Shown here: positions 5,727 to 59,422 of the stretch, in pieces
How positions within the stretch are numbered: the stretch's first letter is position 1
Layout: each line of letters begins with the position of its first letter
From: Propionibacteriales bacterium
GTDB taxonomy: Bacteria > Actinomycetota > Actinomycetes > Propionibacteriales > Nocardioidaceae
Direction of reading: 5' to 3'
DNA: 61,649 bases
Assembly (NCBI GenBank): GCA_026392465.1
Contig: JAPLCA010000010.1
Coordinates: 1-61,649 of the forward strand
The notes under the pieces: generated by a model
What the model saw: the letters and a program-made list of their open reading frames with translations, nothing else
Database searches by the model: none
Told to the model about the DNA's origin: nothing
Program-made: the position numbers and the translations under genes

Positions 5727-5732
5727 CGACGC

Positions 5733-8882: not shown

Positions 8883-8906
8883 GGTTTGGAGGCTCCTTGG
8901 GACAAG

Positions 8907-9836: not shown

Positions 9837-9876
9837 GATTCTTCCTTGGGTACAGAGGTCCTGGAGCAGATGATGA

Positions 9877-10644
9877 TCAGGGGTGCCGTTTCAGCAGGAC
9901 GGTCGCGATGAATTGCGTGTTTCCGATCAGGTACCGACGCCACAGGCGTCGAGGCTCACGGAACAATCGGTATGCCCACTCCATCCCGCACTTGGTGATG
10001 AGGGCAGGCGCTTCGCGGACAGACCCGGCGACGAAGTCGAAGGCGGCTCCCACCGCCACCGCTGTGACCGGAAGCCGTTCCGCGAGTCGCGCGGCCTCGA
10101 AGTCCTGCTTGGGAGTGCCAAGGCCGACCCACACGACGTCCGCGCCGGCCTCCTGGATGCGCCGGTCCTGCTCCGCCAGTTCCTCTTCCCGGAGCTCGCG
10201 GAATGGCGGACTGAAGGATCCGACGATCGACGCATCTGGGTACCGGGATCTGAGGTTGGCTTCCAGCAGCGTCAGCGTCTCGGGCGTCGCCCCCAGCAGG
10301 TAGTGCTTGACCTCGGCCTCGAGCCCTCGCTCGAACGTCCGCAGGAAGAGTTCGACGCCCCTGATCTGTCGGAGCGGGACTTCATCGCGCCGGAGTCGAG
10401 AGACCCAGCCAATGGGTTTGCCGTCCGGGAGGTTGATGGCCGAGCCGGACACCGCTTCAAGATAACCTGAGCGACGCTCCGCGAGTGTGACGCTGTAGGC
10501 GTTCAGAAGATGCACGTGGGCACCAGAGGTGCCGAGCTGGGCAAGGTCACACAGGGCGACGGCCGCCGCGTCCAGATTCGTGGCGACAAAGGTGACTGGA
10601 CCCACCATGTGGCGAACAGAAAGGTCGGTGGGGGTCGTGCCCAT
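9877..10644 (-). CDS. WecG/TagA/CpsF-family glycosyltransferase (GT26)
   Basis: 255 aa. LLNAYSVTLAERR, INLPDGKPIGW (catalytic Asp in DGKPIGW) and WVGLGTPKQDFEAARL are the family hallmarks, and the C-terminal RLFREPRRLWRRYLIGN is the basic membrane-attaching tail. These enzymes add the second sugar (often ManNAc type) to the undecaprenyl-PP-linked first sugar. The start is the ATG at 10644, two bases after the stop of the priming transferase gene; the open frame continues 50 codons further up but only inside that gene. The order, priming transferase followed by GT26, matches the order of the reactions. Confidence 0.9.
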   Translation of the reverse strand: MGTTPTDLSVRHMVGPVTFVATNLDAAAVALCDLAQLGTSGAHVHLLNAYSVTLAERRSGYLEAVSGSAINLPDGKPIGWVSRLRRDEVPLRQIRGVELFLRTFERGLEAEVKHYLLGATPETLTLLEANLRSRYPDASIVGSFSPPFRELREEELAEQDRRIQEAGADVVWVGLGTPKQDFEAARLAERLPVTAVAVGAAFDFVAGSVREAPALITKCGMEWAYRLFREPRRLWRRYLIGNTQFIATVLLKRHP

Positions 10645-10646
10645 GA

Positions 10647-44337: not shown

Positions 44338-44768
44338 GCGCGTGCTCCTTCGGGACGGATGGTGCGGTGGCGGCGTGTGCCGAGGGGCTGCCAGAGCAGG
44401 AGGCCCGCGTAGAGCGCGAGCAGCCCGGCGAGGTGCAGGGCCACGTCGGTGGCGAGGGTCGTGGCGTGGCCGTGGCCGAGCACGTGCACGTCGACGACGA
44501 GCACGGCGGTCCAGGTGAGGCCGGCGGCCACGAGGCAGCGGCCGCGGTGCTCACGCCGTGGTCGCTGACGGGGCCGGGCGCGGGCGGTGACGACCAGCAG
44601 CGCCGTGAGCGTCATGAGGAGCACGAGGTCGCGCGCGAGGGCGTCGACCAGAGGGTGGGCGGAGCCCTGCACGAGGCCGAGCCATCCGAGCCCGGCGGTC
44701 GCGACGGTGTAGGTCAGCACGACCAGGGCCGAGGTGGAGGCCGGTGCGAGGAGGTCCCGCCGTGGCAC
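44334..44768 (-). CDS. small multi-pass membrane protein
   Basis: About 144 aa, four hydrophobic helices (STSALVVLTYTVATAGLGWLG, DLVLLMTLTALLVV, CLVAAGLTWTAVLVVDV and LALYAGLLLW). The GTG at 44768 is the most upstream plausible start and lacks a clear Shine-Dalgarno. Its stop overlaps the Ldi-like start (ATGA), so it likely partners that enzyme in the membrane (inference). No family recognised. Confidence 0.6.
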   Translation of the reverse strand: MPRRDLLAPASTSALVVLTYTVATAGLGWLGLVQGSAHPLVDALARDLVLLMTLTALLVVTARARPRQRPRREHRGRCLVAAGLTWTAVLVVDVHVLGHGHATTLATDVALHLAGLLALYAGLLLWQPLGTRRHRTIRPEGARA

Positions 44769-44804
44769 GGCGGGGCGGCTGCCGGGGCCGAGCCGCGGGC
44801 GCGC

Positions 44805-45104
44805 GTCGCCGCCACCGTCGCCGCCCTCGTCGACACGCTCGCGGCCGACCCGCCCCGCGCCCGCCTGTACGCCGAGTCGCCGCTGCGCCAGTCGCTGCAC
44901 GACCGGCGTCGTGCAGCGCAGGGCGAGTTCGCCGACCTCGTGCTCGGTGCCGTCCTCCAGGCAGGGCCGGAACGACGTCTGGACGCGCTGTTCGTGGTCG
45001 CCGGCGCCACCGACGTGGTCACGCGGTGGCTGCTCGGCGAGCTCGACGTCGACCGCGACACCCTCGTCGAGGGGGTCACGGCCATCGGCGTCGGGCTGCT
45101 CTGA
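44805..45104 (+). pseudogene. TetR-family regulator, C-terminal remnant
   Basis: 99 codons that read as the ligand-binding half of a TetR protein: VAATVAALVDTLAADPPRARLYAE, LHDRRRAAQGEFADLVLGAV, DALFVVAGATDVVTRWLLGELDVDRDTLVEGV. No helix-turn-helix is encoded upstream in any frame; the space is taken by the start of the divergent membrane-protein gene. Either the N-terminus was deleted or the domain survives alone. It precedes the TauE/SafE gene by 13 bases. Confidence 0.5.
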
Positions 45105-45117
45105 GAGGGTCGGGTGC

Positions 45118-45846
45118 GTGGCGGACCTCGGGATGGGCGCGCTCGTGGTGGTGCTGCTCGCGGTGCTCGTCGGCGCGTTCGTGCAGTCGGCCGTCGGCAT
45201 CGGGCTCGGCCTCGTCGCCGCCCCCGTCGTCACGCTCGCCGCGCCGCAGCTGATGCCGGGCGGCATGTTGATGGTCGTGCTGTTGCTGCCGCTCGTCACC
45301 CTCGCTCGTGAGCGCGAGGACGTCGACTGGCGCGGGCTCGGCTGGGCGTTCCCCGCCCGCGTCGTCGGCACCGCGGTCGGCGTGTGGGTGGTCGCGAGCG
45401 TCGACGAGCGACAGCTGGGCGTGGCGGTCGGCGCGATGGTCCTGCTCGCGGTGCTGCTCACCGCGCGCACCGTCGTGGTGCCCGTGAACCCCGGCACGCT
45501 CGGCGTCGCCGGGTTCGTCAGCGGCATCACGGGCACCGCGTCGTCCATCGGCGGACCGCCGCTCGCGATCCTGCTGCAGCACCGGGCCCCGCGCCAGATC
45601 CGCACCACCCTGGCGGTCTACTTCCTGCTCGGGTCGGTGCTGAGCCTCGTCGGCCTGGGCATCGCGGGCGAGCTCGACGTCGCCGAGGTCCAGCTCGCCC
45701 TGCTCTGCATCCCTCCCCTCGTCCTCGGCTTCGCCGTCAGCGGACCCCTGCGGCGACACCTGCCGCCCGGCCTCGTGCGGGTGCTGGTGCTCATCGTCAG
45801 CGGGTCGTCGGCGCTGCTGCTGCCCGTGCGCTCCCTCCTCGGCTGA
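45118..45846 (+). CDS. TauE/SafE family sulfite exporter-like permease
   Basis: 242 aa, about eight helices. LVGAFVQSAVGIGLGLVAAPVVTLAAPQLMPGG and GVAGFVSGITGTASSIGGPPLAILLQHR are the two repeated signature halves (TSUP family). These permeases move small anions such as sulfite, sulfoacetate or taurine-derived products. The start is GTG at 45118. The HELGH-protein gene begins 49 bases after its stop. Confidence 0.87.
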   Translation: MADLGMGALVVVLLAVLVGAFVQSAVGIGLGLVAAPVVTLAAPQLMPGGMLMVVLLLPLVTLAREREDVDWRGLGWAFPARVVGTAVGVWVVASVDERQLGVAVGAMVLLAVLLTARTVVVPVNPGTLGVAGFVSGITGTASSIGGPPLAILLQHRAPRQIRTTLAVYFLLGSVLSLVGLGIAGELDVAEVQLALLCIPPLVLGFAVSGPLRRHLPPGLVRVLVLIVSGSSALLLPVRSLLG

Positions 45847-45895
45847 GCGCGGTCGGCTGTGAGACGGTGGTCGCACGCGCGACCCGGGGGGGAGC

Positions 45896-47509
45896 ATGGA
45901 GCACGATCGCACCGACTGGTCGGCCTTGTCGGCGACCGACCTGGTGAGGCGACTCGACGCCCTCCTGGAGACGTCGCTCGACGCCGACGCGTGGGTGGCG
46001 GTCGCCGCGATGCACAACGAGATGGCGTACCGGGTCCACCGGCACCGCCTGCTCGGCTGGGGCGCGGCCCCGGAGGCGTCGGCCGTCGTAGCCTTGGTCC
46101 AGGATCCCGGCCGGACGCGCGCCCTGCGGGAGAAGCTTGCTCTCCGGTGCTTCGCGGGCCATGACGACGAGCTCGAGCTGTCGCGGCTGTCCTACCTCTC
46201 CGACGTCGGCGTCCCGGCGACGCGGGAGGAGCAGGAGGCCGAGGAGGCGCTCGCGCACGCCGGCGAGCGGTTCGAGCACGACCTGCACGCGGTGCTCGAC
46301 CGCCTGTCGGGCGGACGGACCCCGGGCACCCCGCGGCAGCGCCTGCTCGCCCTCGCCAGCAGCTCGGACCAGGATCGGCGCACACGGTTGAGCCGTGTCC
46401 CTGCCCACGTGGGAACGAAGCACGGCGGTCTGGTCGAGCGGCTCGATCGAGTGGTGGACCTGCGCTTCGCGCGCGCGTCGTCGATGGGTCATGCCCACCC
46501 GCTGGAGGCAGTCCTCGCGGCGGGAGGACTCCCGATCGGTGGGCTCGACGCCGCGTTGCTGGCCGTCGTCGACGCGGCGGTGGACGCCCGACCACGCTCG
46601 GGCGAGCAGGCAGGTCCGGCGACCGACACCGAGCTGGTGCCGCCCCGCCGAGAGCCGGGCGCGGACACGGAGCCGCGCTACCGTCTCGAGGAGATGCTGG
46701 AGGCCTTCGGTCGACGCGCTGGGGCCGAGCTGGGTGTCCACGTGACCTGGCAGGTCTCCGGAACGACCATCGTCGCGGAGGTGGAGCGCGCCGACGGTCG
46801 GACCGGGACGATCGTGGTGCGCCGTGGAGGACGGGGTCCCGCATTCACCACGGCGCTGCGGAACCGCACCGACTGGCCCGGCCTGCACCAAACCCCCGTG
46901 GCCTGCTGCACGCTCGACCTCCCGCCCGGCGACGTGAGCCTGGGGCAGGCCCGGGTGCTCTTCCACGAGCTGGGCCACGGGCTGCAGCACGTCCTCTGGC
47001 GACGCCGGATCTCCAACCTGGCCGGACTCGAGTACGTCAGCGTGGAGCGCCGCGAGCTGCTGAGCCAGGCCTGCGAGTTCTGGGTGCACCGGTCCGACGT
47101 GGTCGACCCGGGGAGGTCGGATCGGACACGGGGCGGGTCCCTGGACGCGGCGTGGACCGCGCACCAGGTCGGCGTCCTCGGGCGCGCGGTCCTCGGCTGG
47201 GTCGACCTGCAGATCCACACGCAGCGCGGTCTCGGCGTGGAAGCCGCCCTGGACCGGCTGCGCCGGCTGGTCGACCTGCCGCCGGACCTCGACGCCGTCG
47301 CGGTCGCCGCGTCGTTGTCGAGTCCGCGTCACCGGGCTCGTCCCGGCACGGCCTTCGTCTACCCGCTCGGCGCGGCACGGGCCGCTGAGCTCGCCCACGA
47401 CGGTGGTCCGCTCCTGAACGAGGCGTCGGACCCCGAGCACCCGTGGCGACGGCCTCGACCAGACGTCGAGCTCCGCACCCGTCCGGCGCAGTGGGTCGGA
47501 CGATCCTGA
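45896..47509 (+). CDS. M3-like HELGH metalloprotein 1 (RiPP cluster)
   Basis: 537 aa, cytoplasmic. The zinc motif HELGH (H357-H361) is followed at fixed spacing by H365, E379, E384 and E387; E387 is 26 residues after H361 and sits in RRELLSQACEFW, resembling the third-ligand region of M3 oligopeptidases (xFVExPSQ). The chain is shorter and otherwise very diverged. Two homologues with the same spacing lie at 48617 and 55267. It may cleave the precursor or modify it as a metalloenzyme; both are inference. The stop overlaps the aldo/keto reductase start (TGATG). The start uses GGGGGGAG close to the ATG. Confidence 0.8.
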   Translation: MEHDRTDWSALSATDLVRRLDALLETSLDADAWVAVAAMHNEMAYRVHRHRLLGWGAAPEASAVVALVQDPGRTRALREKLALRCFAGHDDELELSRLSYLSDVGVPATREEQEAEEALAHAGERFEHDLHAVLDRLSGGRTPGTPRQRLLALASSSDQDRRTRLSRVPAHVGTKHGGLVERLDRVVDLRFARASSMGHAHPLEAVLAAGGLPIGGLDAALLAVVDAAVDARPRSGEQAGPATDTELVPPRREPGADTEPRYRLEEMLEAFGRRAGAELGVHVTWQVSGTTIVAEVERADGRTGTIVVRRGGRGPAFTTALRNRTDWPGLHQTPVACCTLDLPPGDVSLGQARVLFHELGHGLQHVLWRRRISNLAGLEYVSVERRELLSQACEFWVHRSDVVDPGRSDRTRGGSLDAAWTAHQVGVLGRAVLGWVDLQIHTQRGLGVEAALDRLRRLVDLPPDLDAVAVAASLSSPRHRARPGTAFVYPLGAARAAELAHDGGPLLNEASDPEHPWRRPRPDVELRTRPAQWVGRS

Positions 47510-48594
47510 TGGAGCACAGGAGCCTGGGGCGGAACGGGCCGTCGGTGTCCGTCCTCGGACTCGGGGTGGCGTCGTTCGGCGACGCCTGGGGCTCGGGCTG
47601 GACCACGGACCTGCGCGACGCGCGCGACCTCCTGCGCGCCGCCGTCGATCTCGGCATCACCTGGGTGGACACCGCGAGCGTCTACAACCGGGGGCGGAGC
47701 GAGGAGTGGCTGGGGGCGCTGATGGCCCGCGACGGTCTGCGTGACGACCTGCTCGTCGCGACGAAGTTCGGGTACCGGACGGCGCCGGACGACCCCCACG
47801 CGGGCGGCTCGGGCGTCGAGGCGATGCGTCGTTCGGTGACCCGGTCCCTGCGCCGGCTCCGCACCGACCACGTCGACGTGCTCTACCTCCACCTGTGGGA
47901 CGGGGTCACCCCGCCGGAGGAGACCTGGGAAGCCGCGTCGGACCTGGTCGACGAGGGCCTCGTCGGGTCCTTCGCACTGAGCAACGTCCCGGCGTGGTAC
48001 GCGGCGCTCGTCCACGGGAGGGCCACCGCGCTCGGTGGACACGCCCCGGTGTGCCTGCAGATGCACCACAACCTGTTGGTCAGGGAGTGGGAGGACGAGT
48101 TCGTCGACCTGCTCCGTCACACCGGGACGGGCCTGGTGTGCTGGGGGCCGCTTGCCAACGGGCTCCTGACGGACCGGTACGTCGTCGACGAGGACGGGAT
48201 CCGCGGGGAGGGGCGGATGACGACCGGCACGTTCACCACCGGTTCGGTCGACCCCTTCAGTGAACGCACGGCGACGGTGCGCACCGAGCTGGGACGGGTG
48301 GCCCGGGAGGTCGGCCGTCCGGTCGCGGAGGTGGCGCTCGCGTGGCTGCTGGGCCGTCGGTACGTCTCCTCGGTCATGCTGGGCGTCACGTCGGTGGAGC
48401 AGCTGCAGCAGGCCTCGGCGGCGGTGGACCTGCGACTCGACGCCGCGCTGCGGGCACGTCTCGATGCCGCGAGCGCCGTGCCCGTGCACTACCCGCACAC
48501 CTTCGTCCAGGACGACACGCTGAGGTTGGTGCACGGGGACCGGCTGCCCCCGGACCGCGCGGGGCGGCACGACGCGGACCCCGGCCCGCCCTGA
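47509..48594 (+). CDS. aldo/keto reductase (RiPP cluster)
   Basis: 361 aa TIM-barrel NADPH enzyme. GLGVASFGDAWGSG, WVDTASVYNRGRSEEWLGALM (catalytic Tyr in VYN), VATKFGY (Lys) and VLYLHLWDG (His) form the usual Asp/Tyr/Lys/His tetrad, and SNVP, GPLANGLLT and VMLGVTSVEQL follow. It is coupled to HELGH protein 1 by a one-base overlap. In the cluster it could reduce a carbonyl on the peptide or supply a small substrate (inference). Confidence 0.88.
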   Translation: MEHRSLGRNGPSVSVLGLGVASFGDAWGSGWTTDLRDARDLLRAAVDLGITWVDTASVYNRGRSEEWLGALMARDGLRDDLLVATKFGYRTAPDDPHAGGSGVEAMRRSVTRSLRRLRTDHVDVLYLHLWDGVTPPEETWEAASDLVDEGLVGSFALSNVPAWYAALVHGRATALGGHAPVCLQMHHNLLVREWEDEFVDLLRHTGTGLVCWGPLANGLLTDRYVVDEDGIRGEGRMTTGTFTTGSVDPFSERTATVRTELGRVAREVGRPVAEVALAWLLGRRYVSSVMLGVTSVEQLQQASAAVDLRLDAALRARLDAASAVPVHYPHTFVQDDTLRLVHGDRLPPDRAGRHDADPGPP

Positions 48595-48616
48595 CCCCCC
48601 CGGTGCCGTGGCGGGT

Positions 48617-50134
48617 TCAGGGACGCGTCCGCACGTCCCGCGCCGAAGCCCAGGTGCGCACGAGCGCTCGGTCGCCCTCGGCGTGGGCCCGTTCGGCCTG
48701 CGTCGACGCCCACAGGTACGTCCAGGCCGTTCCGGGTCGGACCGCCGACGGGCCCGTGGCCAGCGCCTCGTAGAGATCGGCGAGGACGATCTGCGACGCG
48801 ATCGACGGGCGGTCGCGCACCAGCCGCGCCCAGACCTCGAGCAACGACCGGCCCGGGGTGCCGTCAGCCTGGAGGTCCAGCACGGCGACGACCGCGCGCT
48901 CCAGCGACGCGGCCCCGTGCTCGATCCGCTTGGCCTCCCAGGCGCGCTGCAGACCGGCCTGGTCGACGCCCTCCATCCGCGCGTCGGCGACGAACGCGGT
49001 CTCGAACCACAACGGCAGGAGCTCGGCGTGCTCCGGGGCGAAGCGTTCGAGCGCGGTGGTCAGCGGGAGAGCCCCGCCCGTCGTGGCGTGCGCGACGGCG
49101 TGTCCCAGCTCGTGGGCCAGGGACAAGGCGTCCTGGGGCGTCAGGACGCCTCGCACGCCCGAGGACCAGCTCGACTCCACGAGCGTCACCGGACCGCGCC
49201 GCACGCCAGGGGCGTCGATGCGGTTGCGCAGACCCAGCGTGTGGTTGGGACGGTCTCGACCTCGGCGCAGGACGATGCGGACGTCGCCGTCGCCCCGGTC
49301 GTCGAGGATCCTCACCCGCCAGTGCCCCCCGGAGTCGGGGCCGACCACCTCGGCGTCCAGACCCAGGTGCCGGGTCGCCAGCGCGCAGACAGCCTCCAGG
49401 GCGGCCCGGATCGGGACCCCGACGTCCGTCGACCCCGCGACGGGGTGGCGGCGCAGGTAGGCCGGGACGTCGGCGACGAGCAGGACCTCGTCGGTCGGGA
49501 TCTCCAGCACCTCACCGAGCTCCTCCTGCAGGCGCTGAACCGTCGTCGAGGCGGAGTCGAGCACTTCGTCGAGGAGGTCCGCCGCATCGGGCGACGCCTC
49601 GGCGCGGCGAGCGTGCGCGGCGCTCGCCCAACGGTCGAAGGCCGCGGCGAACGTTTCCTCGTGGACCTCGCGGACCCGACGCCGGGCGAGGACGACACGC
49701 CGGCGCGTGCGCGCGGCGTCGGCGTGACGGAGCACGGAGTAGAGCCGAGCGGCGGACGAACCCGCGCGCGGGGCGCCGATGCGGTCGCACAGGTCGTGGT
49801 CGGCGCGTCGGACCGTGTCGAGGACGGCGTCGAGCGACGCCCGCGCCAAGGCGATCTCGGCGGGTTCCGGGTCCTGCTCGTCGGCACGGTGCTGCGCGTG
49901 CCACTGGCGGAGGAGGTCGACCTCGACGGCAGGCAGGCCGAGGTCGCTCGCGTGCTCGACGAGGGTGTCGAGGGTCCCGTCTTCGAGCCGCACGTCGGTG
50001 GTCGCCGACGACCCGAGCCAGTGCTCGGGCAGGCCCCGCTCGCGGAGCACGCGACGGCCGGCCTCGGCGTCCAGGGCACCCAGGACCAGGGCCAGCCGCT
50101 CCAGGTCGTCACTGCCGTGCGCACATCCGTCCAC
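48617..50134 (-). CDS. M3-like HELGH metalloprotein 2 (RiPP cluster)
   Basis: 505 aa from GTG at 50134, preceded by AAGGGGG at 8 bases; GTG at 50161 is an alternative. HELGH lies at 341-345, with H349, E363, E368 and E371 at exactly the same distances as in the other two copies. It has no signal peptide or membrane segment. The gene is divergent from the precursor gene, with about 120 bases between, and converges on the aldo/keto reductase gene. Role as for copy 1: leader/follower protease or peptide-modifying metalloenzyme, not distinguishable from sequence. Confidence 0.78.
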   Translation of the reverse strand: MDGCAHGSDDLERLALVLGALDAEAGRRVLRERGLPEHWLGSSATTDVRLEDGTLDTLVEHASDLGLPAVEVDLLRQWHAQHRADEQDPEPAEIALARASLDAVLDTVRRADHDLCDRIGAPRAGSSAARLYSVLRHADAARTRRRVVLARRRVREVHEETFAAAFDRWASAAHARRAEASPDAADLLDEVLDSASTTVQRLQEELGEVLEIPTDEVLLVADVPAYLRRHPVAGSTDVGVPIRAALEAVCALATRHLGLDAEVVGPDSGGHWRVRILDDRGDGDVRIVLRRGRDRPNHTLGLRNRIDAPGVRRGPVTLVESSWSSGVRGVLTPQDALSLAHELGHAVAHATTGGALPLTTALERFAPEHAELLPLWFETAFVADARMEGVDQAGLQRAWEAKRIEHGAASLERAVVAVLDLQADGTPGRSLLEVWARLVRDRPSIASQIVLADLYEALATGPSAVRPGTAWTYLWASTQAERAHAEGDRALVRTWASARDVRTRP

Positions 50135-50256
50135 GTGCTGAACCCCCTTGACATGGTGCACACCTCCACCTTGACTGAAGAGGTCGGGGCTCGTCCACGG
50201 CACGATCGGGCGGTCCGCGACTTCATCGAAACCACACAGATCGGGGAGTGATTGAC

Positions 50257-50412
50257 ATGGCAGACACGACGTTCGACAAGAAGCCCGCCTTCTTCCGGGT
50301 GGCGACGTTCGAGATGTTCTTCGAGGCGGAGTCCGCCGACAGCAAGGCTGCTGCGGCGAACCTCGCGCAGGACGTCGACCTGGACGCCGAGCTCGACGCC
50401 ATCCTGGGCTGA
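50257..50412 (+). CDS. candidate RiPP precursor peptide, 51 aa
   Basis: The ATG at 50257 has GGGGAG nine bases upstream. The N-terminal half has FDKKPAFFRVATFEMFFEAE with the only arginine (R14) and five phenylalanines within residues 12-22 or close by (F6, F12, F13, F18, F21, F22). The C-terminal half is acidic and helical, ending DLDAELDAILG. There is no Cys and no His. Size, isolated position at the head of an operon of modifying enzymes plus an exporter, and the hairpin right after its stop are typical of RiPP precursors. The core may be the aromatic N-terminal part with a C-terminal follower, or the reverse; sequence alone does not decide. Confidence 0.75.
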   Translation: MADTTFDKKPAFFRVATFEMFFEAESADSKAAAANLAQDVDLDAELDAILG

Positions 50413-50423
50413 CCGGGCAGCAG

Positions 50424-50462
50424 GCCGGGGTCGTGGTCGCTTCGAGCGGCCGCGGCCCCGGC
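50424..50462 (+). terminator. 17-bp hairpin after the precursor gene (partial terminator)
   Basis: GCCGGGGTCGTGGTCGC pairs with GCGGCCGCGGCCCCGGC around a TTCGA loop (17 pairs, three of them G-U), 11 bases after the precursor stop and followed by TTCTTCC. Such a hairpin lets more precursor than enzyme mRNA be made by partial read-through or protects the 3' end (inference). Confidence 0.65.
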
Positions 50463-50549
50463 TTCTTCCGCGTGGCTGCAAGGCCGCGGCGGGTGGAGCA
50501 CGAGGACCGGGCAGTCGAGGGTTCGGGCAGACGAGGGTTCGGGGGAGCC

Positions 50550-51497
50550 ATGGAGACAGCGACGTTCGCAGGTACGACGAGCAGTGACGGTGCAGGAGCG
50601 GCGTCGAGGACCGGGACCGTCGTCGGCGTCCCCACGTCGGCGGGTTCTCCGCACGAGGGCAGTGAGAACGGACCGTACTTCCTGCGGAGGGTGTCCCAGC
50701 ACCTGACGTGGGGCTACGACGACGGCGTCCCCCTCGCGGTCGACACGCTGGAGGCCATGAGCGGATGGGTCGACGGTGGCGATCTCGAGCTGCCCGACGG
50801 TGCGGACGCCGAGAAAGTCGCCTCGGCCGTGCGCCGCGAGGTCGCGGACCTGGCGCGCCTCGGCGTGGTGGGGCTCGTCGGGGGCGACCACAGCATCACC
50901 GCCGGCGCCGTCGAGGCGCTCGTCGAGCACCATCCCGACCTCTGGGTCGTGCAGCTCGACCACCATCTCGACGTGCAGATCTGGGACCACGGACCGCTCG
51001 ATCCCCTGTTCCACACCAACGTCATGTCGCACGTCGGTCGCTGGATCCGTCCCGGCCACCTCCTCCAGCTCGGTCTGGCGCCGTTCGTCGCCGCGCCCGG
51101 TGGCTCGCTGGACGACGTGAGAACGCTGCTGTCGGGAATGGGACGGCAGGTGTCCTCGGTGGCTGGCATGATCGACGACGACGTCGCCCTGGCCGAGCTG
51201 CTCGGCCGTGACCGGGCGGTCTACGTGACCGTCGACCTGGACGTCCTCCAGCCCGAGGCCATGTCCAGCACCGGATATCCCGCGACCACGGGACTCTCCC
51301 TCGGTCGGGTCGTCCAGCTCCTGCGGCTGCTCTCCCGCGCCAACACGATCGTGGGGTTCGACGTCGTCGAGTTCTCCGCGGACCGCGACGACCGCAGCCC
51401 CGTGGTCCTCGCCGACGCGGGTCGGGCCGCCGTCGTCCTTGCCGAGCTCATGCGTTGCTCGTCGCCCGCCCCAACGCGCGGGGAGGCCCGTCGATGA
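50550..51497 (+). CDS. arginase/ureohydrolase family enzyme, candidate peptide arginase
   Basis: 315 aa. All six binuclear Mn ligands are present: H114 in GGDHS, D137/H139/D141 in LDHHLD, and D229/D231 in VDLDV. FDVVEFSADRD is the last conserved block. Free-arginine arginases and agmatinases use the same fold; the location directly after a precursor with one arginine suggests conversion of that peptide Arg to ornithine, as known for the OspR type (family knowledge; target inferred). ATG at 50550 follows GGGGGAG; the frame continues 39 codons upstream and there encodes GFFRVA. The stop overlaps the TPR-like start (ATGA). Confidence 0.85.
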   Translation: METATFAGTTSSDGAGAASRTGTVVGVPTSAGSPHEGSENGPYFLRRVSQHLTWGYDDGVPLAVDTLEAMSGWVDGGDLELPDGADAEKVASAVRREVADLARLGVVGLVGGDHSITAGAVEALVEHHPDLWVVQLDHHLDVQIWDHGPLDPLFHTNVMSHVGRWIRPGHLLQLGLAPFVAAPGGSLDDVRTLLSGMGRQVSSVAGMIDDDVALAELLGRDRAVYVTVDLDVLQPEAMSSTGYPATTGLSLGRVVQLLRLLSRANTIVGFDVVEFSADRDDRSPVVLADAGRAAVVLAELMRCSSPAPTRGEARR

Positions 51498-52729
51498 CCG
51501 TCCAGGCGCGCCCCCTGCAGACCTCGACGAACGCCTTCTCGCGCACGATGGTCGAGCTCGACGTGACCGACGATGTCACGCACGACCTCTTCAGCCGCAG
51601 CGTCCGCCAGCACCTGCGCGACCTCCGTTCCTTCCGGTGGACCTTCCCCCTCACCCAGGTGTTCGAGCCGGAGGTGCTGGACGAGGCGGCCCTGCTCCGT
51701 GGGCTGGACCCGACGGCCGTCCGCCGTCTCGACGAGGGCTCGTCGACGGCGCAGGCCCTGGCCGAGGAGGCGGCCGCGGCCGCGGATGAGCCGGCGGAGG
51801 AGACCCTGTGCGTCGCGGCCGCGCTCGTGAGCGTGTCGCGGTTTGAGCTCGCCCGCGAGGTGCTCCGGACGGTCGACGCCACCGCGCACCCGCGCGCGGC
51901 GTTCGAGCGCGCGATGCTCGAGTTCGTCATCGCGAACCGCACCACGCTCTCGGCGGAGCGGATGACCGCTGCGTTCCGGCGCATGCAGGCCGCGGCACGG
52001 AGCGAGGAGGTCCCGCGCGACCGCCTTCTCGACGCCTGTGCGCAGGCCGTCGTCTGGTACCTGAAGTGCGAGGCGGTCCCTCGCGAGCTCTTCGAGTGGT
52101 TCTCCCGGGAGGGGCAGTCCTTGGTCACGCACCGGCGCGACGAGCTCGGCGCAGCCACCGTCTCGTCCTGGTACCGCGGGATCGCCATGGTCCCGGCCGG
52201 TCGGCGTGATGCCGACCTGACCCGGCGCGTGATGCGCCAGGCAGGTCGGGTGGCGGAGGAGGCCATCGCACAGGCGGGGTCGGGAGCCCTCGAACTCACC
52301 CTGCGCAAGACCTACCACGAGTCCTCCGTCAAGGAGTACCTCTACGTGTCCCGGGACCAGGAGCAGGCGCTGTACCACGCCGACCAGCTCGTGGACCTCG
52401 ACCCGGCATGGTCGGTCAGCCACGGCGAGAAGGCCGAGGTCTGCCGTTCGTTCGGGCTCCTGGAGCAGGCCGCGGAGAACTTCGACGCGGCGGCGACCGT
52501 CGGCCCTCCCTACGTGCGCCACCATCTGTTGCAGGCTGCTCGTGCGTGGGACGAGCTCGGCGAGCCCCGCGCGGCGTTGGAGCGCTACGACGCGATCTGC
52601 GCGATCGGGATGCCGTTGCCAGGGCTGCTGCAGGAAGCTGCAGCCGTGCGTCAGCGCGTGCACGACGCGGCGGTGACGCCCGTGGCCGGGCGGACGGACA
52701 CGTCAACCTTCGACCGCGGGGGCCGGTGA
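51494..52729 (+). CDS. TPR-like helical protein (RiPP cluster)
   Basis: 411 aa, soluble, almost entirely helical. Paired-helix units are visible, for example CVAAALVSVSRFELAREVL, then in the C-terminal third EQALYHADQLVDLDPAWSV, EVCRSFGLLEQAAENFDAA and RAWDELGEPRAALERYD, which match TPR spacing. No enzyme motif is found. The most likely role is binding the precursor and bringing enzymes together (inference). It is coupled upstream to the arginase gene, and the MATE gene begins 4 bases after its stop. Confidence 0.62.
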   Translation: MTVQARPLQTSTNAFSRTMVELDVTDDVTHDLFSRSVRQHLRDLRSFRWTFPLTQVFEPEVLDEAALLRGLDPTAVRRLDEGSSTAQALAEEAAAAADEPAEETLCVAAALVSVSRFELAREVLRTVDATAHPRAAFERAMLEFVIANRTTLSAERMTAAFRRMQAAARSEEVPRDRLLDACAQAVVWYLKCEAVPRELFEWFSREGQSLVTHRRDELGAATVSSWYRGIAMVPAGRRDADLTRRVMRQAGRVAEEAIAQAGSGALELTLRKTYHESSVKEYLYVSRDQEQALYHADQLVDLDPAWSVSHGEKAEVCRSFGLLEQAAENFDAAATVGPPYVRHHLLQAARAWDELGEPRAALERYDAICAIGMPLPGLLQEAAAVRQRVHDAAVTPVAGRTDTSTFDRGGR

Positions 52730-52733
52730 GACG

Positions 52734-54086
52734 GTGGAGCGTGCTGACGACCACACCCGGTTGACCACCCGCTCGTTCACCGGGTTCTCCCTCACGATGT
52801 TCGCGGTCGGCATGATCTCGGTGGGGTTCGGTGCCGTCGACATGGCCCTCGTCGCGCCGTTCGGTGTGGAGGTCCTCGCGGCCGTCGGCCTGGGGGAGGT
52901 CGTCGTCGTCACGGCGAGCGCGTTCCTCGCCGGACCGATCGACGTGCTGACCTCCCGCGTCGCGCAGTCCGAGGGCGGTGAAAGGCTGGCCCACGAGCTC
53001 GGCTCGCTCCTCGTCGGGTTCGTGGCCGTGCTCGCGCTCCTGCAGGTCGTCGCCGTCGGGTTCGCCTGGTCCAGCGAGACGCTGCTCGTAGCCCTGGGGC
53101 AGGACCCGGCGGCGGCCGCGGGTGCCGCGACCTACGTGCAGGTCCGGCTGGGCGGGGTGGCGCTCACGGTCCTCTTCATGGTCACCATGGAGCTCCTGCG
53201 CATCCTCGGCATGAAATCCGCCTCGGTGGTCGTGCTGGTGGTCGGTCTGGCCGCCAACGCCGGGCTCGACCTGCTGCTGCTGCACGGACCGCCGGCGGAC
53301 CACGTCGACCCGGTGGCGGGGGTGGCCGTGGCCACGGTGCTCGTCCACGCCGGGGCTGCCCTGGTCGGTGCCGCGCTGCTCGTGCGCCGACTCCGGGCGC
53401 GGGGATCGGTGGCGCGTCCCGGCGCGGCCGCAGTGCGCGACCACGCTCGGGCGACGCTGGTGACGGGCAGCGGCGTGGGCCTGCGGCACCTGAACGACTA
53501 CGCGGCTGCCGCGGTGCCGTTCCTCCTCGTCGGTACCCTCGGGGTGCAGGTGACCGCCGCGGCTGCAGTCGCCACCAAGATCTGGACGCTCTACTGCCGG
53601 GTGCCGCAGGCCTGCACCTCGGCCAGCTTCGTCTTCTACGGGTACGCGCTGGGCCGTGAGCAGGTGTCGGCCGAGCTGCGCCGACGTCTTCTCGTGATGA
53701 CGGCCGTGCCTACCCTGTCGTCCGCCCTGCTGGTGCTCGCGGCCACGCCCTGGTTGGTCGACCTCCTCGGTGGCGGGAGCGTCGACCGTGGCATGGCCGC
53801 GCTGCTGACCGCGGCCTTTCTGGTGGGCACGCTTCCGTACCTCTTCGAGAAGCTCGCCGGTGAGCTGCTCACGGTCGAGGGCGACGCGGGATACCTGGCG
53901 GTGACCTCGACCCTGACGACCTACCTCCTGACCCTGCCCCTGGCGGCGCTCTCCGTGCTCGCCCTCGGGTCGGCGTTCGGCGCCTTCGCCGCAGGAGCCG
54001 TCGGCTCAGCCGTGCTGGCGGTGCTCTTCTGGCGACGGCTCACCCACGTCACCGGTCGTCGACAGGTCGTGGAGGTAGCACGGTGA
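52734..54086 (+). CDS. MATE-family exporter (RiPP cluster)
   Basis: 450 aa from GTG, about 12 helices in two six-helix halves. FSLTMFAVGMISVGFGAVDMALVAPFG begins the first half, and LNDYAAAAVPFLLVGTLGVQ the second; the fold is MATE/MOP. It is the only transporter in the operon and thus the candidate exporter of the mature peptide (inference); MATE export is uncommon for RiPPs, which usually use ABC transporters. Its stop overlaps the propeller gene start (GTGA). Confidence 0.82.
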   Translation: MERADDHTRLTTRSFTGFSLTMFAVGMISVGFGAVDMALVAPFGVEVLAAVGLGEVVVVTASAFLAGPIDVLTSRVAQSEGGERLAHELGSLLVGFVAVLALLQVVAVGFAWSSETLLVALGQDPAAAAGAATYVQVRLGGVALTVLFMVTMELLRILGMKSASVVVLVVGLAANAGLDLLLLHGPPADHVDPVAGVAVATVLVHAGAALVGAALLVRRLRARGSVARPGAAAVRDHARATLVTGSGVGLRHLNDYAAAAVPFLLVGTLGVQVTAAAAVATKIWTLYCRVPQACTSASFVFYGYALGREQVSAELRRRLLVMTAVPTLSSALLVLAATPWLVDLLGGGSVDRGMAALLTAAFLVGTLPYLFEKLAGELLTVEGDAGYLAVTSTLTTYLLTLPLAALSVLALGSAFGAFAAGAVGSAVLAVLFWRRLTHVTGRRQVVEVAR

Positions 54087-55270
54087 CGTCGCGGAGCTCG
54101 CGGTTCGACCCTGCGCCGGCCTGTCTGCGGGCTGCCGGCGCGGACGTGGCGTGGGACCAGGAGCCGGTCGTGGCAGCCCACCGGACTGTGCGGGGCACCG
54201 ACCTGCGGGACGGGTCGAGCGTCCCGGTGGCGGTGAGTGCCACCCCGGGCGTGGTCGACGGGGTCGGGGTGGTGGTGGCGTCGGACGACGGCTGGCTGCG
54301 ATTCCTCGACCGCTCCCTGACCCGCACCTACTGGGAACGGCGGCTGAACCGCGGGTTCTACGCCCCGCTCTCCTTCCTCCAGGACGCGGAGGCGGTCCTG
54401 GTCGTGACGACTGCAGGGCTGGTCGGGTGCTTCGGCGTGCGTGGTGAGCTGCGCTGGGCGCGCGCGCTGGACCACGGGGTGCTCGCCCCGGTCACGACCA
54501 TCGGCACGTCGCTCCTGGTGGCGACCTTCGACCACCGGTGCGTCCTGCTCGACCCCGAGTCCGGCGACGTGCGCGCCGAGGTCGACCTGCCGGCGCCCTG
54601 GGCCCGTCAGGTCGGCGGGCTCGCGGGACGCCGTGACGTCTACGCGGCGCCGGTGACGACACCCGCGGGGGCGGTGGTCTGCTGTGGTGAGCACGTCGTC
54701 GGCCTCGCCGACGACGGCGCTGCGGCCTGGACCGTCGACCTCGGCGTCGCGGTCAAGGCTTCCCCGGTCGTCGTCGACGACGAGCGCGTCGGGGTCGTCG
54801 GCGTCGACGGCGTCTGCCGCGAGATCGACCTCGTGACGGGGACGGTGCAGCGGTCGCTGCGGCTCGGTGCCAAGGTCACTGCGAGCCCGGTCGTCTCGGA
54901 CGGCGTCGTCGTGGTCGGTCTCGCCGACGGGCGCAGCGTCGGCATCGACATCGCCTCGTGGCAGCGACGGTGGGAGGAAAAAGGTGGGGGTCCCTTCGAC
55001 CATACGGGGTACACCCGACTCCCCGACGGCGGCGTCGTGTGCGTCAACCAGCGCGGGAACGCCGAGTGCCGCGACCCGGCGGACGGAGCGTTCCGGTGGG
55101 AGAGCAGCCAGGTCCTCGGGTTGCCGGACCACGAGACCGCGCTCCACACCACGCCGGTGGCGGGACCGTCCGGCGACCTGTACGCGACGTCCTACACGGG
55201 TGACGTATACCGCTTCATCTTCCGGGACAAGCGGTCTGCGACCCGTCCGAGAGGGGAGCTCGTCCCATGA
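54083..55270 (+). CDS. PQQ-like beta-propeller protein without signal peptide
   Basis: 395 aa from GTG. Repeated units such as VVASDDGWLRFLDR, LVGCFGVRGELRWARALDHG, HRCVLLDPESGDVRAEVDL, VVGLADDGAAAWTVDLGV and AECRDPADGAFRWES have the quinoprotein propeller pattern with A-W/G-D ends. No signal peptide and no PQQ-binding Cys pair are seen, so a cytoplasmic binding or scaffold role is more likely than dehydrogenase. Propellers are rare in RiPP operons. Coupled on both sides (GTGA and ATGA). Confidence 0.75.
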   Translation: MTSRSSRFDPAPACLRAAGADVAWDQEPVVAAHRTVRGTDLRDGSSVPVAVSATPGVVDGVGVVVASDDGWLRFLDRSLTRTYWERRLNRGFYAPLSFLQDAEAVLVVTTAGLVGCFGVRGELRWARALDHGVLAPVTTIGTSLLVATFDHRCVLLDPESGDVRAEVDLPAPWARQVGGLAGRRDVYAAPVTTPAGAVVCCGEHVVGLADDGAAAWTVDLGVAVKASPVVVDDERVGVVGVDGVCREIDLVTGTVQRSLRLGAKVTASPVVSDGVVVVGLADGRSVGIDIASWQRRWEEKGGGPFDHTGYTRLPDGGVVCVNQRGNAECRDPADGAFRWESSQVLGLPDHETALHTTPVAGPSGDLYATSYTGDVYRFIFRDKRSATRPRGELVP

Positions 55271-56937
55271 CGACCACGATCAGCTCGACCGACCCCCAGC
55301 AGCTCGCGCAGCTCTTGGCGGGCCGGCTGCATGCGGAGACGGTCCACGACCCCGAGTCGTTCGAGCGGCACGTGCTCGGCCGTTCGAACCTCGCCTACCT
55401 GATGCTCTACCTGGAGTCCAACGACGTGCCGGCAGCGCAGGTCGCCGCGGTGCGCGCAGCGCTCGACGGTACGAGGCAGGACCGCCTCCGGCTCGCCGCG
55501 GACCTCGAGGCGCTCCGCCTGCCCGGCCCTCTCGAACGGGTCCGAGGTCGGTGGGTCGAGGAGCTGCACCGTGCGGGCGGTGACCCGACGCGCGCCGACG
55601 TCCAGGCAGCCCGGGAACGCTTCGACGGCGCGCTCGCCGCTCTCGACGCCTCGGTCGACGAGCTCGTACGGCGCCTCGGCGGCCCGGAGGGCCCGGTGGT
55701 CGGCACGGGCGACAGCGTCGTGTACGCCTGGCTCGCCCGGTTCGACGACCCGCAGCGGCGCGTGAAGCTTTCGGCCGCACGGGAGCGGGTTCGGTCGCAG
55801 CAGGTGCCGCAGGCGGTCGACGCACTCGAGGAGCTCGTCGGGCTGAGGACGGTCGAGGCACGCGAGCGTGGGTTCGGGTCCGCCCTGGAGGCGTCGCTCT
55901 CCGCGAGCGACCTCGACGTGGACCGTGCCACCGACTACGTGCAGGCCCTGCTGCGCGAGGCCGTCATCGACAACGCGAGCCTGCGCTCGGAGCTCGAGGC
56001 CGGGCTCGGCGAGCGGTGGCTCGGCCGCGTCGGCGACCACCTGCCCGCTTACCTGCGTGCAGAGGACACCTCGACGACCGTGCTGCTCGACGCAGGACGC
56101 CTCGTCGAGCACGCTCTCGAGGAGCTGACCGAGCCGCTGCCGGTGGACGGCGTCGCCGTCGACCGCCAGACCGACACCATCCGGCTCCTGCGTGGACGTT
56201 CGGTGCTCGGGACCATCGCGCTCCAGGCATGGGTCGAGCACCGTCCGACCACGAACGTGACCCTCTCCCAGGCGGAGCTGGAGCGCCCGCTGGCCTTCGT
56301 CGCCGTCCCGCCCGCAGACGGTGACGGTCGGCGGACCCTGCCGCTCGGCGCGGCGCAACGTCTGATGCACGAGCTCGGTCATGCGCTCAACCACGTGCTG
56401 ATCGAGGAGCGTGGCCCGAGCAGCACGGGTCTGGACTACCTGCCGCTCGAGCGGGTCGACCTGTTCAGCACCTGTCTCGAGCGCTGGGTGTACCGCCTCG
56501 ACCTGCACGAGAGCGGCGTCGTGCGTCAGGGCACGCACACGGACCTCCAGCGCGCCCAGCGGCTCCGTCAGGTCCAGGCGCGCCAGGCGGCCGCCGAACG
56601 GGCGGTCGTCAGCGCGCTCGACCTCGCGATCCACGGATCGTCGAGCCCGGGGGTGGTGGCCGCGTACGACGTCCTCGTGGCCGAGCACGGGGTCGACAGC
56701 ATCGTGAGCCTCGACGCGGTCCTGCCCTACTTCGGCTGGCCGAGCCTGCTGGCCCACCCGGGAGCCGACCTCGCCGTGCCGTACGCGGCTGCGCTCGCGG
56801 AGGTCACCATGGAGGGCCTCCTCGCCCGACGTCCGGGCGCAGGTGCGACGCTCGTCGAGCAGGCGCTGCGGCCCGCCGCGCGCTCGACGGACTCGGACCC
56901 GCGCCGCGCCGTCCGTCCGGGAGCGTGGATCCGATGA
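55267..56937 (+). CDS. M3-like HELGH metalloprotein 3 (RiPP cluster)
   Basis: 556 aa. HELGH is at 368-372, then H376, D390, E395 and D398 at the same spacings as in copies 1 and 2. The residue at the third-ligand position (+26) is Asp here where the others have Glu, which could change metal chemistry or activity. LDYLPLERVDLFSTCLERW corresponds to the M3 FVExPSQ region. No signal peptide. It starts with ATGA overlapping the propeller stop and ends with ATGA overlapping the methyltransferase start. Confidence 0.8.
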   Translation: MTTTISSTDPQQLAQLLAGRLHAETVHDPESFERHVLGRSNLAYLMLYLESNDVPAAQVAAVRAALDGTRQDRLRLAADLEALRLPGPLERVRGRWVEELHRAGGDPTRADVQAARERFDGALAALDASVDELVRRLGGPEGPVVGTGDSVVYAWLARFDDPQRRVKLSAARERVRSQQVPQAVDALEELVGLRTVEARERGFGSALEASLSASDLDVDRATDYVQALLREAVIDNASLRSELEAGLGERWLGRVGDHLPAYLRAEDTSTTVLLDAGRLVEHALEELTEPLPVDGVAVDRQTDTIRLLRGRSVLGTIALQAWVEHRPTTNVTLSQAELERPLAFVAVPPADGDGRRTLPLGAAQRLMHELGHALNHVLIEERGPSSTGLDYLPLERVDLFSTCLERWVYRLDLHESGVVRQGTHTDLQRAQRLRQVQARQAAAERAVVSALDLAIHGSSSPGVVAAYDVLVAEHGVDSIVSLDAVLPYFGWPSLLAHPGADLAVPYAAALAEVTMEGLLARRPGAGATLVEQALRPAARSTDSDPRRAVRPGAWIR

Positions 56938-57581
56938 CCCAGCCGCACTTTCCCTCCGGGTACGTCCGTGCCGTGCTGGGCGGACGTGATCCCGTCGCGG
57001 ACTCGATCCTGAGGTCGTCCCTGGGCGAGCACGCCCAGCCGACGATCCAGGTGGACGACAACGCCGCGCGGCTCCTCGAGCTGCTGGTGCGGGTCGCCCG
57101 CCCCGAGCGGGTGCTCGAGATCGGGACGCTGTTCGGCTACTCGACCCTTCACCTCGCCCGCGGACTGGCCGGGACGGGCACGGTCACCAGCATCGAGGTC
57201 GACCCCGCGGCAGCCCGCCTCGCCCGCGACAACCTCGACGCCGCCGGTCTAGCAGACCGCGTGTCGATCCTCGTCGGTGACGCGGTGGAGGTGCTGGCGA
57301 CCCTGCCGGAGGACCCGTTCGACTTCGTCTTCGTCGACGGACGCAAGTCCGAGTACCCCCGGTACCTCGCCGCGGTCCACCCTCGGCTCCGCGTCGGAGG
57401 TCTGCTCGTGGCCGACGACGCCTTCTCCGCGGGGGACTTCGCCCCCGACGGTGATGACGACACCGACGCCGCCCGGGGGATCTCGGGCTACGTCCGGGCC
57501 CTGGGCCGCTCCTCGTCGTACGCGTCCGCGTTCGCGGGGACGGAGACGGGTCTGCTCATCTCACGGAAGGAGTCGGCATGA
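56934..57581 (+). CDS. class I SAM-dependent O-methyltransferase
   Basis: 215 aa. VLEIGTLFGYSTLHLARGL is SAM motif I, SIEVDPAAARLARDNL motif II and FDFVFVDGRKSEYPRYL the catalytic Asp/metal region of the catechol/caffeoyl-CoA O-methyltransferase (Mn/Mg) type. In the cluster it could methylate a hydroxyl made by the JmjC oxygenase or a carboxylate of the peptide (inference). The ATG at 56934 overlaps the HELGH 3 stop; an in-frame ATG three codons upstream is less likely. Confidence 0.88.
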   Translation: MTQPHFPSGYVRAVLGGRDPVADSILRSSLGEHAQPTIQVDDNAARLLELLVRVARPERVLEIGTLFGYSTLHLARGLAGTGTVTSIEVDPAAARLARDNLDAAGLADRVSILVGDAVEVLATLPEDPFDFVFVDGRKSEYPRYLAAVHPRLRVGGLLVADDAFSAGDFAPDGDDDTDAARGISGYVRALGRSSSYASAFAGTETGLLISRKESA

Positions 57582-58333
57582 GCACGGGTCTGGCCCTGGT
57601 CACCGGGTGCCACGGAGGGCTGGGGAGCCACGTGGTGTCCGTCCTCCTCCAGGAGGGCTGGGAGGTCGTCGGCGTGGGTCGGCGTCCGCAGGAGGAGGGC
57701 GGCCTGCCGACCGGTGCCACCTACCTGCAGGTCGACGCCCACCACGAGGAGGCAGTGCAGGACGTGGTGGCCCGGCTCGGACGTCGCCCGTCCCTGGTGG
57801 TGCACGCCGCATCGGAGTACCCCCGGGCTACGGAGACACTGCCGGCCGCGGTGATCGAGGCGGCCTTTCGCGTGAACTCGGTGTTCCCCTACCTGCTCGA
57901 CCTGGCCGTCCTCGACATGCCGCGGGACGACCACCAAGGGGTCACGTTGGTCACCGTCGGCTCGGAGGCGATGTTCCACGCGGACGCCGTGTCGGGCGTC
58001 TACGCCGCGACCAAGGCCGCCGCGCGTGTCCTGACGACCGCCGTGGCCGATCGGTGCCGCGGTACGGGTGACCGGGCCTGCACTCTCGTGCTCGGACCGC
58101 TGCTGACCCCTGGTCGGGAGGACGAGATGAACCGGCTGGCCACACGGCTCGAGCGCGACGTGACCGAGCTGACCCGCCATGCCCTCGCTCGCAGCAACCC
58201 CTCGCTCGTGATCGACCAGTTCATCGACCTCGACGCCTGCGCCCGAGCGATCCTCGCCCTGCAGCAGCTGGGGACCGCCGCCAACGGAGCCGTGTGGCGG
58301 CTCGACGGCGGTTCAGCCGGTTCGCTGATCTGA
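57578..58333 (+). CDS. SDR family oxidoreductase (RiPP cluster)
   Basis: 251 aa. VTGCHGGLGSHV at 9-20 is the nucleotide loop, and GVYAATKAAARVL gives YxxxK. HAASEYPRA replaces the more usual NNAG/NAG motif and LGPLLTPGREDEMN fills the substrate loop. It would oxidise a peptide alcohol or reduce a ketone (inference). ATGA overlap with the methyltransferase stop; 37 bases to the next gene. Confidence 0.85.
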   Translation: MSTGLALVTGCHGGLGSHVVSVLLQEGWEVVGVGRRPQEEGGLPTGATYLQVDAHHEEAVQDVVARLGRRPSLVVHAASEYPRATETLPAAVIEAAFRVNSVFPYLLDLAVLDMPRDDHQGVTLVTVGSEAMFHADAVSGVYAATKAAARVLTTAVADRCRGTGDRACTLVLGPLLTPGREDEMNRLATRLERDVTELTRHALARSNPSLVIDQFIDLDACARAILALQQLGTAANGAVWRLDGGSAGSLI

Positions 58334-58370
58334 ACCCCGACCCCTGCCCGACCCGACCAAGGAGGACACC

Positions 58371-59198
58371 GTGACCGTCGCGGACACTGCCGCCAGCCCC
58401 TTTGACTCACCGGCCGAACGTGAGCGTTTCTGGAAGGAGCACTGGCGTCGTCGGCCCTACTTCGTGAAGGGAGGCGCGAGGACCGTCCTGCCGGACCGGT
58501 GGGACGACGACCGCTTCGCTGACCTCCTCGCCGCCGCGCGGCCGGTGGCGGGACGCGGTGGGCTCGCGATCCACGAGCGCGAGGACGATGTCTGCTTCGT
58601 CGAGACGGCATCCGTCGCCGACGACGGGCTCGCGCAGCGCGCCGCGGAGCTCGCAGCCGCGTTCGGTGCTCCTCGCGCCTGGTTCGACGTGATCCGCACG
58701 TACCGACGCAGCGGGATCGGGTCGCACTTCGACCACAGCGACAACATCGTGCTCCAGCAGCAGGGCGTCAAGCACTGGCGGCTCGCACCGCCGACGTCGA
58801 TCGCGCGGGAGACGTATGCGGCTCGGATGATGGGCGTGCCCGGCGTGGGAGCCCAGGAGCTGCCCGACGACGGTGCGCTCGAGTTCACGCTCGAGCCCGG
58901 TGACCTGCTCTACATCCCGCTCATGTGGATCCACTCCGGGGTGTCCGAGGCCGGGTCGCTGAGCATCTCCCTCGTGTGCCCCGCGCAGACCCTCGCCTCC
59001 GTCGTGCTCGGCGCGACGTCGAGGCTCCTCCAGCAGTCGGGACTCGGGCACCAGGCGGTCGGGACCGTCCCCGCCTGGCTCGACCCCACCGAGGCCGCTG
59101 CGGAGGACGAGCGTCTGGCCCACGCCGCGGGTGTCTTGCTGAGGCACCTGGGCAGCGACGAGGTGGTCGAACGCGTCGTCGCCGGGTTGCGATCCTGA
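58371..59198 (+). CDS. JmjC/cupin-type Fe(II)/2-oxoglutarate oxygenase
   Basis: 275 aa from GTG after AAGGAGG. The iron triad H119/D121 (SHFDHSDN) and H188 (WIHSGV) is complete; QQGVKHWRLAPP and LEPGDLLYIPLMWIH are the conserved cupin-4 strands. The closest characterised relatives I can name are ribosomal-protein oxygenases such as YcfD/RoxA, which hydroxylates an arginine of L16. That makes hydroxylation of the precursor, perhaps at its single Arg or an aromatic residue, a reasonable proposal (inference). Last gene of the operon. Confidence 0.83.
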   Translation: MTVADTAASPFDSPAERERFWKEHWRRRPYFVKGGARTVLPDRWDDDRFADLLAAARPVAGRGGLAIHEREDDVCFVETASVADDGLAQRAAELAAAFGAPRAWFDVIRTYRRSGIGSHFDHSDNIVLQQQGVKHWRLAPPTSIARETYAARMMGVPGVGAQELPDDGALEFTLEPGDLLYIPLMWIHSGVSEAGSLSISLVCPAQTLASVVLGATSRLLQQSGLGHQAVGTVPAWLDPTEAAAEDERLAHAAGVLLRHLGSDEVVERVVAGLRS

Positions 59199-59422
59199 CC
59201 GACGCGCGCGGCGGGAACTGGGCAGAACGCGCCAGACGAACCCCTCTCGTCTACACTGGGCGGAGCAGGAGCCGTACGGCCCGCACTCGTGGGTGGGTGC
59301 TCAGCCACCGACCCGCCGCCGAGATCACTGGCGGCCGAGTCGCCGTACGCCCTGTCGCGGTGACGGGCACGACCCGTCCGCCGCCGGCCGAGGCAGACGT
59401 CCGGCCGTGGAGGAGGAGCCTG

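Follow-up and report, generated by a model that had tools for sequence, protein, structure and literature searches.

What does a cluster of twelve genes produce in which a gene for a peptide of only 51 residues stands beside genes for an arginase, an oxygenase and three metalloproteins with an HELGH motif, and is that peptide a precursor, a protein subunit or a chance reading frame? The cluster occupies 45896–59198 of contig JAPLCA010000010.1 from a Propionibacteriales bacterium (assembly GCA_026392465.1), of which positions 1–61,649 were analysed and are referred to here as the window. An earlier note, made from the sequence alone, had proposed a ribosomally synthesised and post-translationally modified peptide (RiPP) pathway of undescribed type. 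The peptide proves to belong to a family whose genes are syntenic with the same enzymes in other genomes, the genes form an island with definable limits, and the identity of peptide residue 14 matches the presence of the arginase and JmjC genes. We consider it probable that the island encodes a RiPP-type pathway in which the single arginine of the peptide is converted to ornithine by the arginase, with likely subsequent hydroxylation by the JmjC oxygenase.

The precursor peptide and its family

The precursor gene (50257–50412, forward strand) encodes 51 residues, of which residue 14 is the only arginine. A single-sequence search found 26 relatives, and a profile built from these retrieved at least 203 proteins, that of the window among them, at E≤0.01; scoring was confined to the 7990 candidates with the most words in common, and 120 of the 203 proteins were aligned. 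Among those 120, Pro10, Ala11, Phe13, Phe21, Phe22, Glu23, Leu46 and Leu50 are invariant, and residue 14 is arginine in 104, proline in 12 and alanine, glycine, asparagine or histidine in one each; the peptide of locus L025, which lies outside this set, has threonine at position 10. The motifs follow the order KxPAFFR/P, FFEAE and LDAELDAIL, with residues 15–18 and 26–41 being the most variable and the tail beyond the LDAELDAIL block having no fixed length. Sources include Streptomyces, Kitasatospora, Nocardia, Micromonospora, Curtobacterium and an Actinomycetales metagenome-assembled genome; among the matches listed, members are named at most 'hypothetical protein', and the family has no entry in Pfam or NCBIfam.

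Relatives found by both kinds of search, together with synteny in nine other genomes, indicate that the 51-residue open reading frame (ORF) is genuine and rule out a chance small ORF. A precursor family this recognisable, with about two hundred members, opens a new group of natural products to immediate genome mining. Upstream of the arginase gene, 24 bases (50457–50480, forward strand) match the segment coding for FFRVA at 19 of 24 positions, the best such match in the window, the next best being 17; these are possibly a decayed second copy, or a chance resemblance.

Loci in other genomes and the common core

A scan of 84,980 species genomes with the pattern K[KT]PAFFRV matched 95 stretches, three of which were confirmed as loci, and many relatives were missed because only one pattern was used. 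Further loci came from peptide profile searches in 394, 350, 346, 396 and 342 genomes, and 70 genomes of one genus were searched additionally with a smaller profile. Among 396 genomes of the window's phylum and 342 of its order, precursor searches found the window alone, and a search of plasmids with the peptide gave no match. This gave ten genomes in total, the window's counted, with fetched flanks of unequal length.

In all ten genomes the peptide is accompanied by a tetratricopeptide repeat (TPR)-like protein, a beta-propeller, an M3-fold metalloprotein of the HELGH type (here called H), an O-methyltransferase (OMT) and a short-chain dehydrogenase (SDR), the SDR of G884 lying beyond the first stretch fetched. 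The earlier note had set beforehand, as the observation that would speak against it, a failure of the small ORF to co-occur with these enzymes; instead, an encoded precursor beside maturation genes that are conserved together, the general mark of a RiPP pathway, is found in 10/10 loci.

In the window the TPR-like protein (51494–52729, forward strand) has no Pfam match, and its structural model (predicted local distance difference test score 86) gives weak matches to TPR superhelices, the best at E 4.4e-5, making it a plausible peptide-binding scaffold on the evidence of the model. The propeller (54083–55270, forward) is PQQ/BamB-like and matches Pfam PQQ_2. The OMT (56934–57581, forward) is of the metal-dependent type (Methyltransf_3), and its D and DD, which presumably bind the metal, are kept at those positions in 10/10 proteins. 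The SDR (57578–58333, forward; adh_short) has the YxxxK motif, as do all nine of the proteins aligned.

Residue 14, the arginase and the JmjC oxygenase

Residue 14 divides the ten genomes into six with arginine (the window's, G058, G059, G060, G386 and G671) and four with proline (G329, G884, G1038 and G1048). An orthologue of the window arginase, scoring 471–571 bits, is present in all six Arg14 genomes, whereas its subfamily is found in none of the four Pro14 genomes, whose best scores are 81.5 (G329), 90.2 (G884) and none at all (G1038 and G1048). The JmjC protein scores 371–524 bits in five of the six Arg14 genomes and at most 39 bits in every Pro14 genome. Of the six Arg14 precursors, four contain no arginine besides Arg14 and two contain one extra; the Pro14 precursors lack arginine altogether in three cases out of four, and 82 of the 104 listed Arg14 relatives have no second arginine in the conserved body. 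The match of residue 14 to the arginase and JmjC genes, together with the position of Arg14 as sole arginine, supports a RiPP pathway with conversion of Arg14 to ornithine.

The window arginase (50550–51497, forward strand), which we predict to be a peptide arginase, matches the ureohydrolase family PF00491 with 122 bits (4.6e-35) and carries the six manganese ligands H114, D137, H139, D141, D229 and D231, invariant in all five arginases aligned. The JmjC_2 oxygenase (58371–59198, forward) has an HxD...H motif that is kept in 3/3 JmjC proteins. A product with ornithine, hydroxyl and methyl groups had been predicted in the earlier note; the ornithine is supported by the arginase counts (6/6 against 0/4), the hydroxyl more weakly by the JmjC gene accompanying the arginase (5/6 against 0/4), and a methyl group is predicted from the OMT gene alone, present in 10/10 loci. 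The TPR-like protein, propeller, H, OMT and SDR make up the common core, and the earlier reading needs correcting in that the arginase and JmjC protein form a module that is optional and goes with residue 14. JmjC in particular was rejected as a member of the common core, since one of the Arg14 genomes lacks it, as does every Pro14 genome.

Within the stretches fetched, three Pro14 loci out of four and none of the six Arg14 loci carry a DUF6445 gene (by Pfam in L026, 18610–19278, and by similarity in L025, 13054–13659, and L027, 17380–17982), the product of which is a candidate enzyme for Pro14. The switch at residue 14 is a natural experiment that predicts which enzyme acts on which residue.

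Comparison with known RiPP systems

Conversion of arginine to ornithine in ribosomal peptides has precedents. In the enteropeptins the PF00491 arginase KgrD forms ornithine within a ribosomal peptide, and a methyltransferase belongs to the same system (PMC12703449). The island resembles this system in its PF00491 arginase and methyltransferase, KgrD being compared by description only, but differs in that KgrD acts after a thiomorpholine has been made from cysteine, whereas the window peptide has no cysteine. Thiomorpholine formation in enteropeptins is a radical SAM step, and unlike the enteropeptin pathway the island proteins give no radical SAM match in Pfam (E≤0.1, the threshold for all the Pfam negatives given for island proteins below).

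Biphenomycin offers a parallel in logic, PMC12707348 describing the arginase BipC followed by the JmjC ornithine hydroxylase BipG, acting on one arginine next to a phenylalanine. The island shares this logic, with genes for an arginase and a JmjC oxygenase and one arginine adjoining phenylalanine, but in that account BipC belongs to the UPF0489 family, in contrast to the PF00491 arginase of the island, and the core is FRF, where the motif of the island peptide is PAFFR. The multinuclear non-haem iron oxidase (MNIO), B12 radical SAM and TldD protease enzymes of biphenomycin have no Pfam match among the island proteins.

A third group of arginases, OspR, FlmR and OhkR (PF12640), forms ornithine in RiPPs, some of them orphan, and the precursor types listed for this group in PMC12703449 (NHLP, N11P, SCIFF, SCCRRSCN, DD(I/V)LF and MGXRRSSE) differ from the island peptide family. 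The window arginase has no PF12640 match and is recovered by PF00491 alone.

A link to the daptides arises in other loci, where a daptide-type class III aminotransferase (NF041821, 558 bits, cut-off 450) is encoded in the G329 locus (L016, 15851–17113, the only one scored with this model), with relatives in L017 (17073–18641), L025 (17660–18937) and L070 (1427–2659); a KASIII-like gene accompanies it in three of these four loci. Daptides require a PF00465 dehydrogenase and a class III aminotransferase, according to PMC10036551 and PMC12338566, and Pfam finds neither in the island proteins. Membership of the window cluster in the daptides was rejected, the likeness being limited to an accessory aminotransferase in other loci.

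Lanthipeptide, YcaO, lasso and radical SAM enzymes have no Pfam match in the island proteins, in agreement with the earlier note, and the lack of fit to any RiPP class likewise holds for those tested, all class-enzyme checks being negative. The claim of an undescribed type has to be narrowed: ornithine made by an arginase (KgrD) and the pairing of arginase with JmjC (biphenomycin) are known, while the precursor family, the core gene set and the altered M3 proteins were absent from the titles listed by the literature searches, which left most subscription journals out of reach. The island is best described as a candidate for a new RiPP class that would use the known arginase-plus-JmjC logic.

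The proposed pathway and its alternatives

In the pathway we propose, the C-terminal LDAELDAIL block, possibly together with FFEAE, would serve as a recognition follower, read by the TPR-like protein and propeller acting as a scaffold, and the core would be the N-terminal part around PAFFR. The arginase would convert Arg14 to Orn14, as KgrD and BipC do, and the JmjC protein would then hydroxylate Orn14 as BipG does in biphenomycin. The OMT, the SDR and, in the window, an aldo/keto reductase (AKR) may add or adjust further groups, the M3-derived H proteins may trim or otherwise modify the peptide, and a transporter of the MATE family would export the product.

Several points weigh against this pathway. 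The aligned peptides show no obvious hypervariable core, and Pfam finds no RiPP recognition element (PqqD-like) in the island proteins. The JmjC gene is absent from the Kitasatospora genome G058 despite its Arg14; the Micromonospora locus is split, with the peptide on one contig and the enzymes on another, and its TPR gene is read in two frames; and, in the stretches fetched, MATE occurs in 7/10 loci and the AKR in 5/10. A four-protein concatenated tree requires no more than one or two Arg14/Pro14 switches, and the one-sided Fisher values of 0.0048 (1/210) for the arginase and 0.024 for JmjC exaggerate independence, since the ten loci are related and need so few switches. The arginase could act on a small molecule instead of the peptide, and both chemistry and product are predicted from gene content rather than from mass shifts or enzyme activities.

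The small number of switches bears on the idea that the match of Arg14, arginase and JmjC is a by-product of ancestry, with one lineage carrying both. It would allow this, L016, L025 and L027 being grouped together (95) and L026 standing apart with weak support (53), but Arg14 loci come from the families of Kitasatospora, Actinokineospora and Micromonospora and include the long-branch window locus, Pro14 loci occur in two of those same families, and the arginase gene has been retained despite a changed position, lying upstream of the operon in reversed orientation in L017. We regard ancestry as an unlikely explanation of the match.

More improbable still, in our estimation, is that the small protein is a structural or carrier subunit of a small-molecule enzyme complex, in which the arginase would act on a guanidino intermediate. 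The peptide is indeed conserved in blocks along its length without a hypervariable core, the relatives of known structure that best match the arginase, agmatinases and proclavaminate amidinohydrolase, use small guanidino compounds, OMT, SDR and AKR enzymes are frequent in small-molecule pathways, and mutually related AMP-binding and P450 genes adjoin the cluster in two loci. Yet the presence of the arginase tracks residue 14 of the peptide itself, the window peptide has neither a cysteine nor the C-terminal motif of LysW, and an aminotransferase of RiPP type is associated with other loci.

The M3-derived H proteins

The window encodes three H proteins, H1 (45896–47509, forward strand), H2 (48617–50134, reverse), which is divergent and aligns with H1 and H3, and H3 (55267–56937, forward). 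H1 and H3 each match Peptidase_M3 weakly, with 32 bits (cut-off 27), H proteins align along the M3 oligopeptidase A, and the H3 model best matches M3 structures, with M2 (ACE/ACE2) chains close behind. A profile search with H retrieved at least five proteins. Across 16 H proteins, HExxH is present in all, and the third metal ligand is glutamate in 14 and aspartate in H3 and in P0122, a metagenomic relative with 79% identity to H3; fold and metal site are thus those of the M3 oligopeptidases thimet oligopeptidase, oligopeptidase A and Dcp. The C-terminal M3 loop is different. One histidine and four tyrosines in it, which we take to have catalytic roles, are common to all four comparison M3 proteins, but the histidine is kept in 0/16 H proteins and the first three tyrosines in 1/16, 1/16 and 0/16, the last being kept in 14/16; H3 of the window keeps none of them. 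The HELGH proteins are accordingly M3-like in fold and metal site, but not in this loop.

Because the loop histidine and three of the tyrosines are almost always replaced despite the kept metal site, plain peptidase action is doubtful. We nevertheless put the chance that the H proteins are ordinary M3 leader or follower peptidases in a conventional RiPP route, which would be compatible with the pathway proposed above, at only slightly short of even. The M3 fold found by profile and structure searches and the metal site speak for it, as do true Dcp-like M3 peptidases adjoining the precursor in two loci; against it stand the altered loop and the retention of H in both of those loci alongside an intact M3 peptidase. 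The HELGH proteins were also considered as alpha-ketoglutarate-dependent HExxH hydroxylases and rejected, H1, H2 and H3 giving no such NCBIfam match at E≤0.01 (the HEXXH peptide-modification model being, we assume, TIGR04267) and aligning, in sequence and structure, with M3 instead.

A broader and more speculative proposal, which we rate as rather unlikely, is that of a new RiPP class with the H proteins as its signature enzymes. As M3 descendants with the metal site intact and the loop rebuilt, they would be maturases catalysing a non-hydrolytic reaction on the invariant Phe-Phe blocks; an interchangeable residue-14 module (arginase plus JmjC for Arg, DUF6445 for Pro) would modify the adjoining position, and the product would be directed at the ribosome, with Otr(A)-like self-protection in some producers. 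If M3-derived proteins are truly maturases, a large protease fold would gain new chemistry.

Organisation and limits of the island

The island as a whole spans 45846–59214, as judged from the matching site of two congeners that lack it. In G005 (L062), at the corresponding place in the chromosome, 30 bases separate the matches of 45845 and 59215, and in G019 (L063) the matches of 45812 and 59249 are separated by 86 bases; the flanks of G005 are 93–97% identical to the window and its helicase protein 99%. These empty sites show that the twelve genes form one discrete island with limits nearly those first proposed, and that H1, the AKR and H2 count as island genes. Either the window lineage gained the island or the congeners lost it. 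Among the same-genus genomes, 0/36 have a relative of H3 at E≤1e-5 (58 genomes searched, the window's included).

H1 overlaps the start of the AKR gene (47509–48594, forward strand; PF00248, Aldo_ket_red), relatives of which follow the SDR in four other loci (L004, L005, L040 and L026). The MATE transporter (52734–54086, forward; Pfam MatE) is the predicted exporter. Four-base overlaps occur at five junctions, namely arginase/TPR, MATE/propeller, propeller/H3, H3/OMT and OMT/SDR, and the ORFs and sequence of 45896–59198 bear out the gene positions and overlaps given in the earlier note. Its enzyme identities are supported by Pfam, which returns arginase, AKR, MatE, PQQ_2, Methyltransf_3, adh_short and JmjC_2; H2, the TPR-like protein and the 51-residue peptide have no Pfam match, and NCBIfam has no name for either the peptide or the JmjC protein.

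Neighbouring genes and other observations

An Otr(A)-like ribosome-protection gene is found in four of the ten loci, flanks being of unequal length (L016, 6325–8514; L018, 894–2861; L026, 7532–9544; L064, 2724–4700); three score 697–760 bits, below the model cut-off of 900, and the fourth was recognised by similarity. The gene directly adjoins the JmjC gene in two loci. These neighbours hint at a product directed at translation, and their place beside four clusters suggests translation as a testable target.

In L005 (1380–7511, Actinokineospora) and L040 (50–5700, Micromonospora) a P450, AMP-binding and carrier proteins and a large unannotated protein adjoin the cluster, which suggests further tailoring. 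Next to the island, window positions 42408–45713 are also missing from L062, where 42407 abuts 45714; this stretch holds a linalool dehydratase/isomerase-like gene (42406–44337) and its neighbour. At the right end of the contig (61550–61649) the last ~90 bases map, inverted, to where the helicase region ends, forming a palindrome that is most likely a fold-back artefact. Towards the left end (1–12000) the G+C content is 0.61–0.64 to about 10 kb and 0.67–0.76 beyond, which suggests that this end of the window is foreign DNA.

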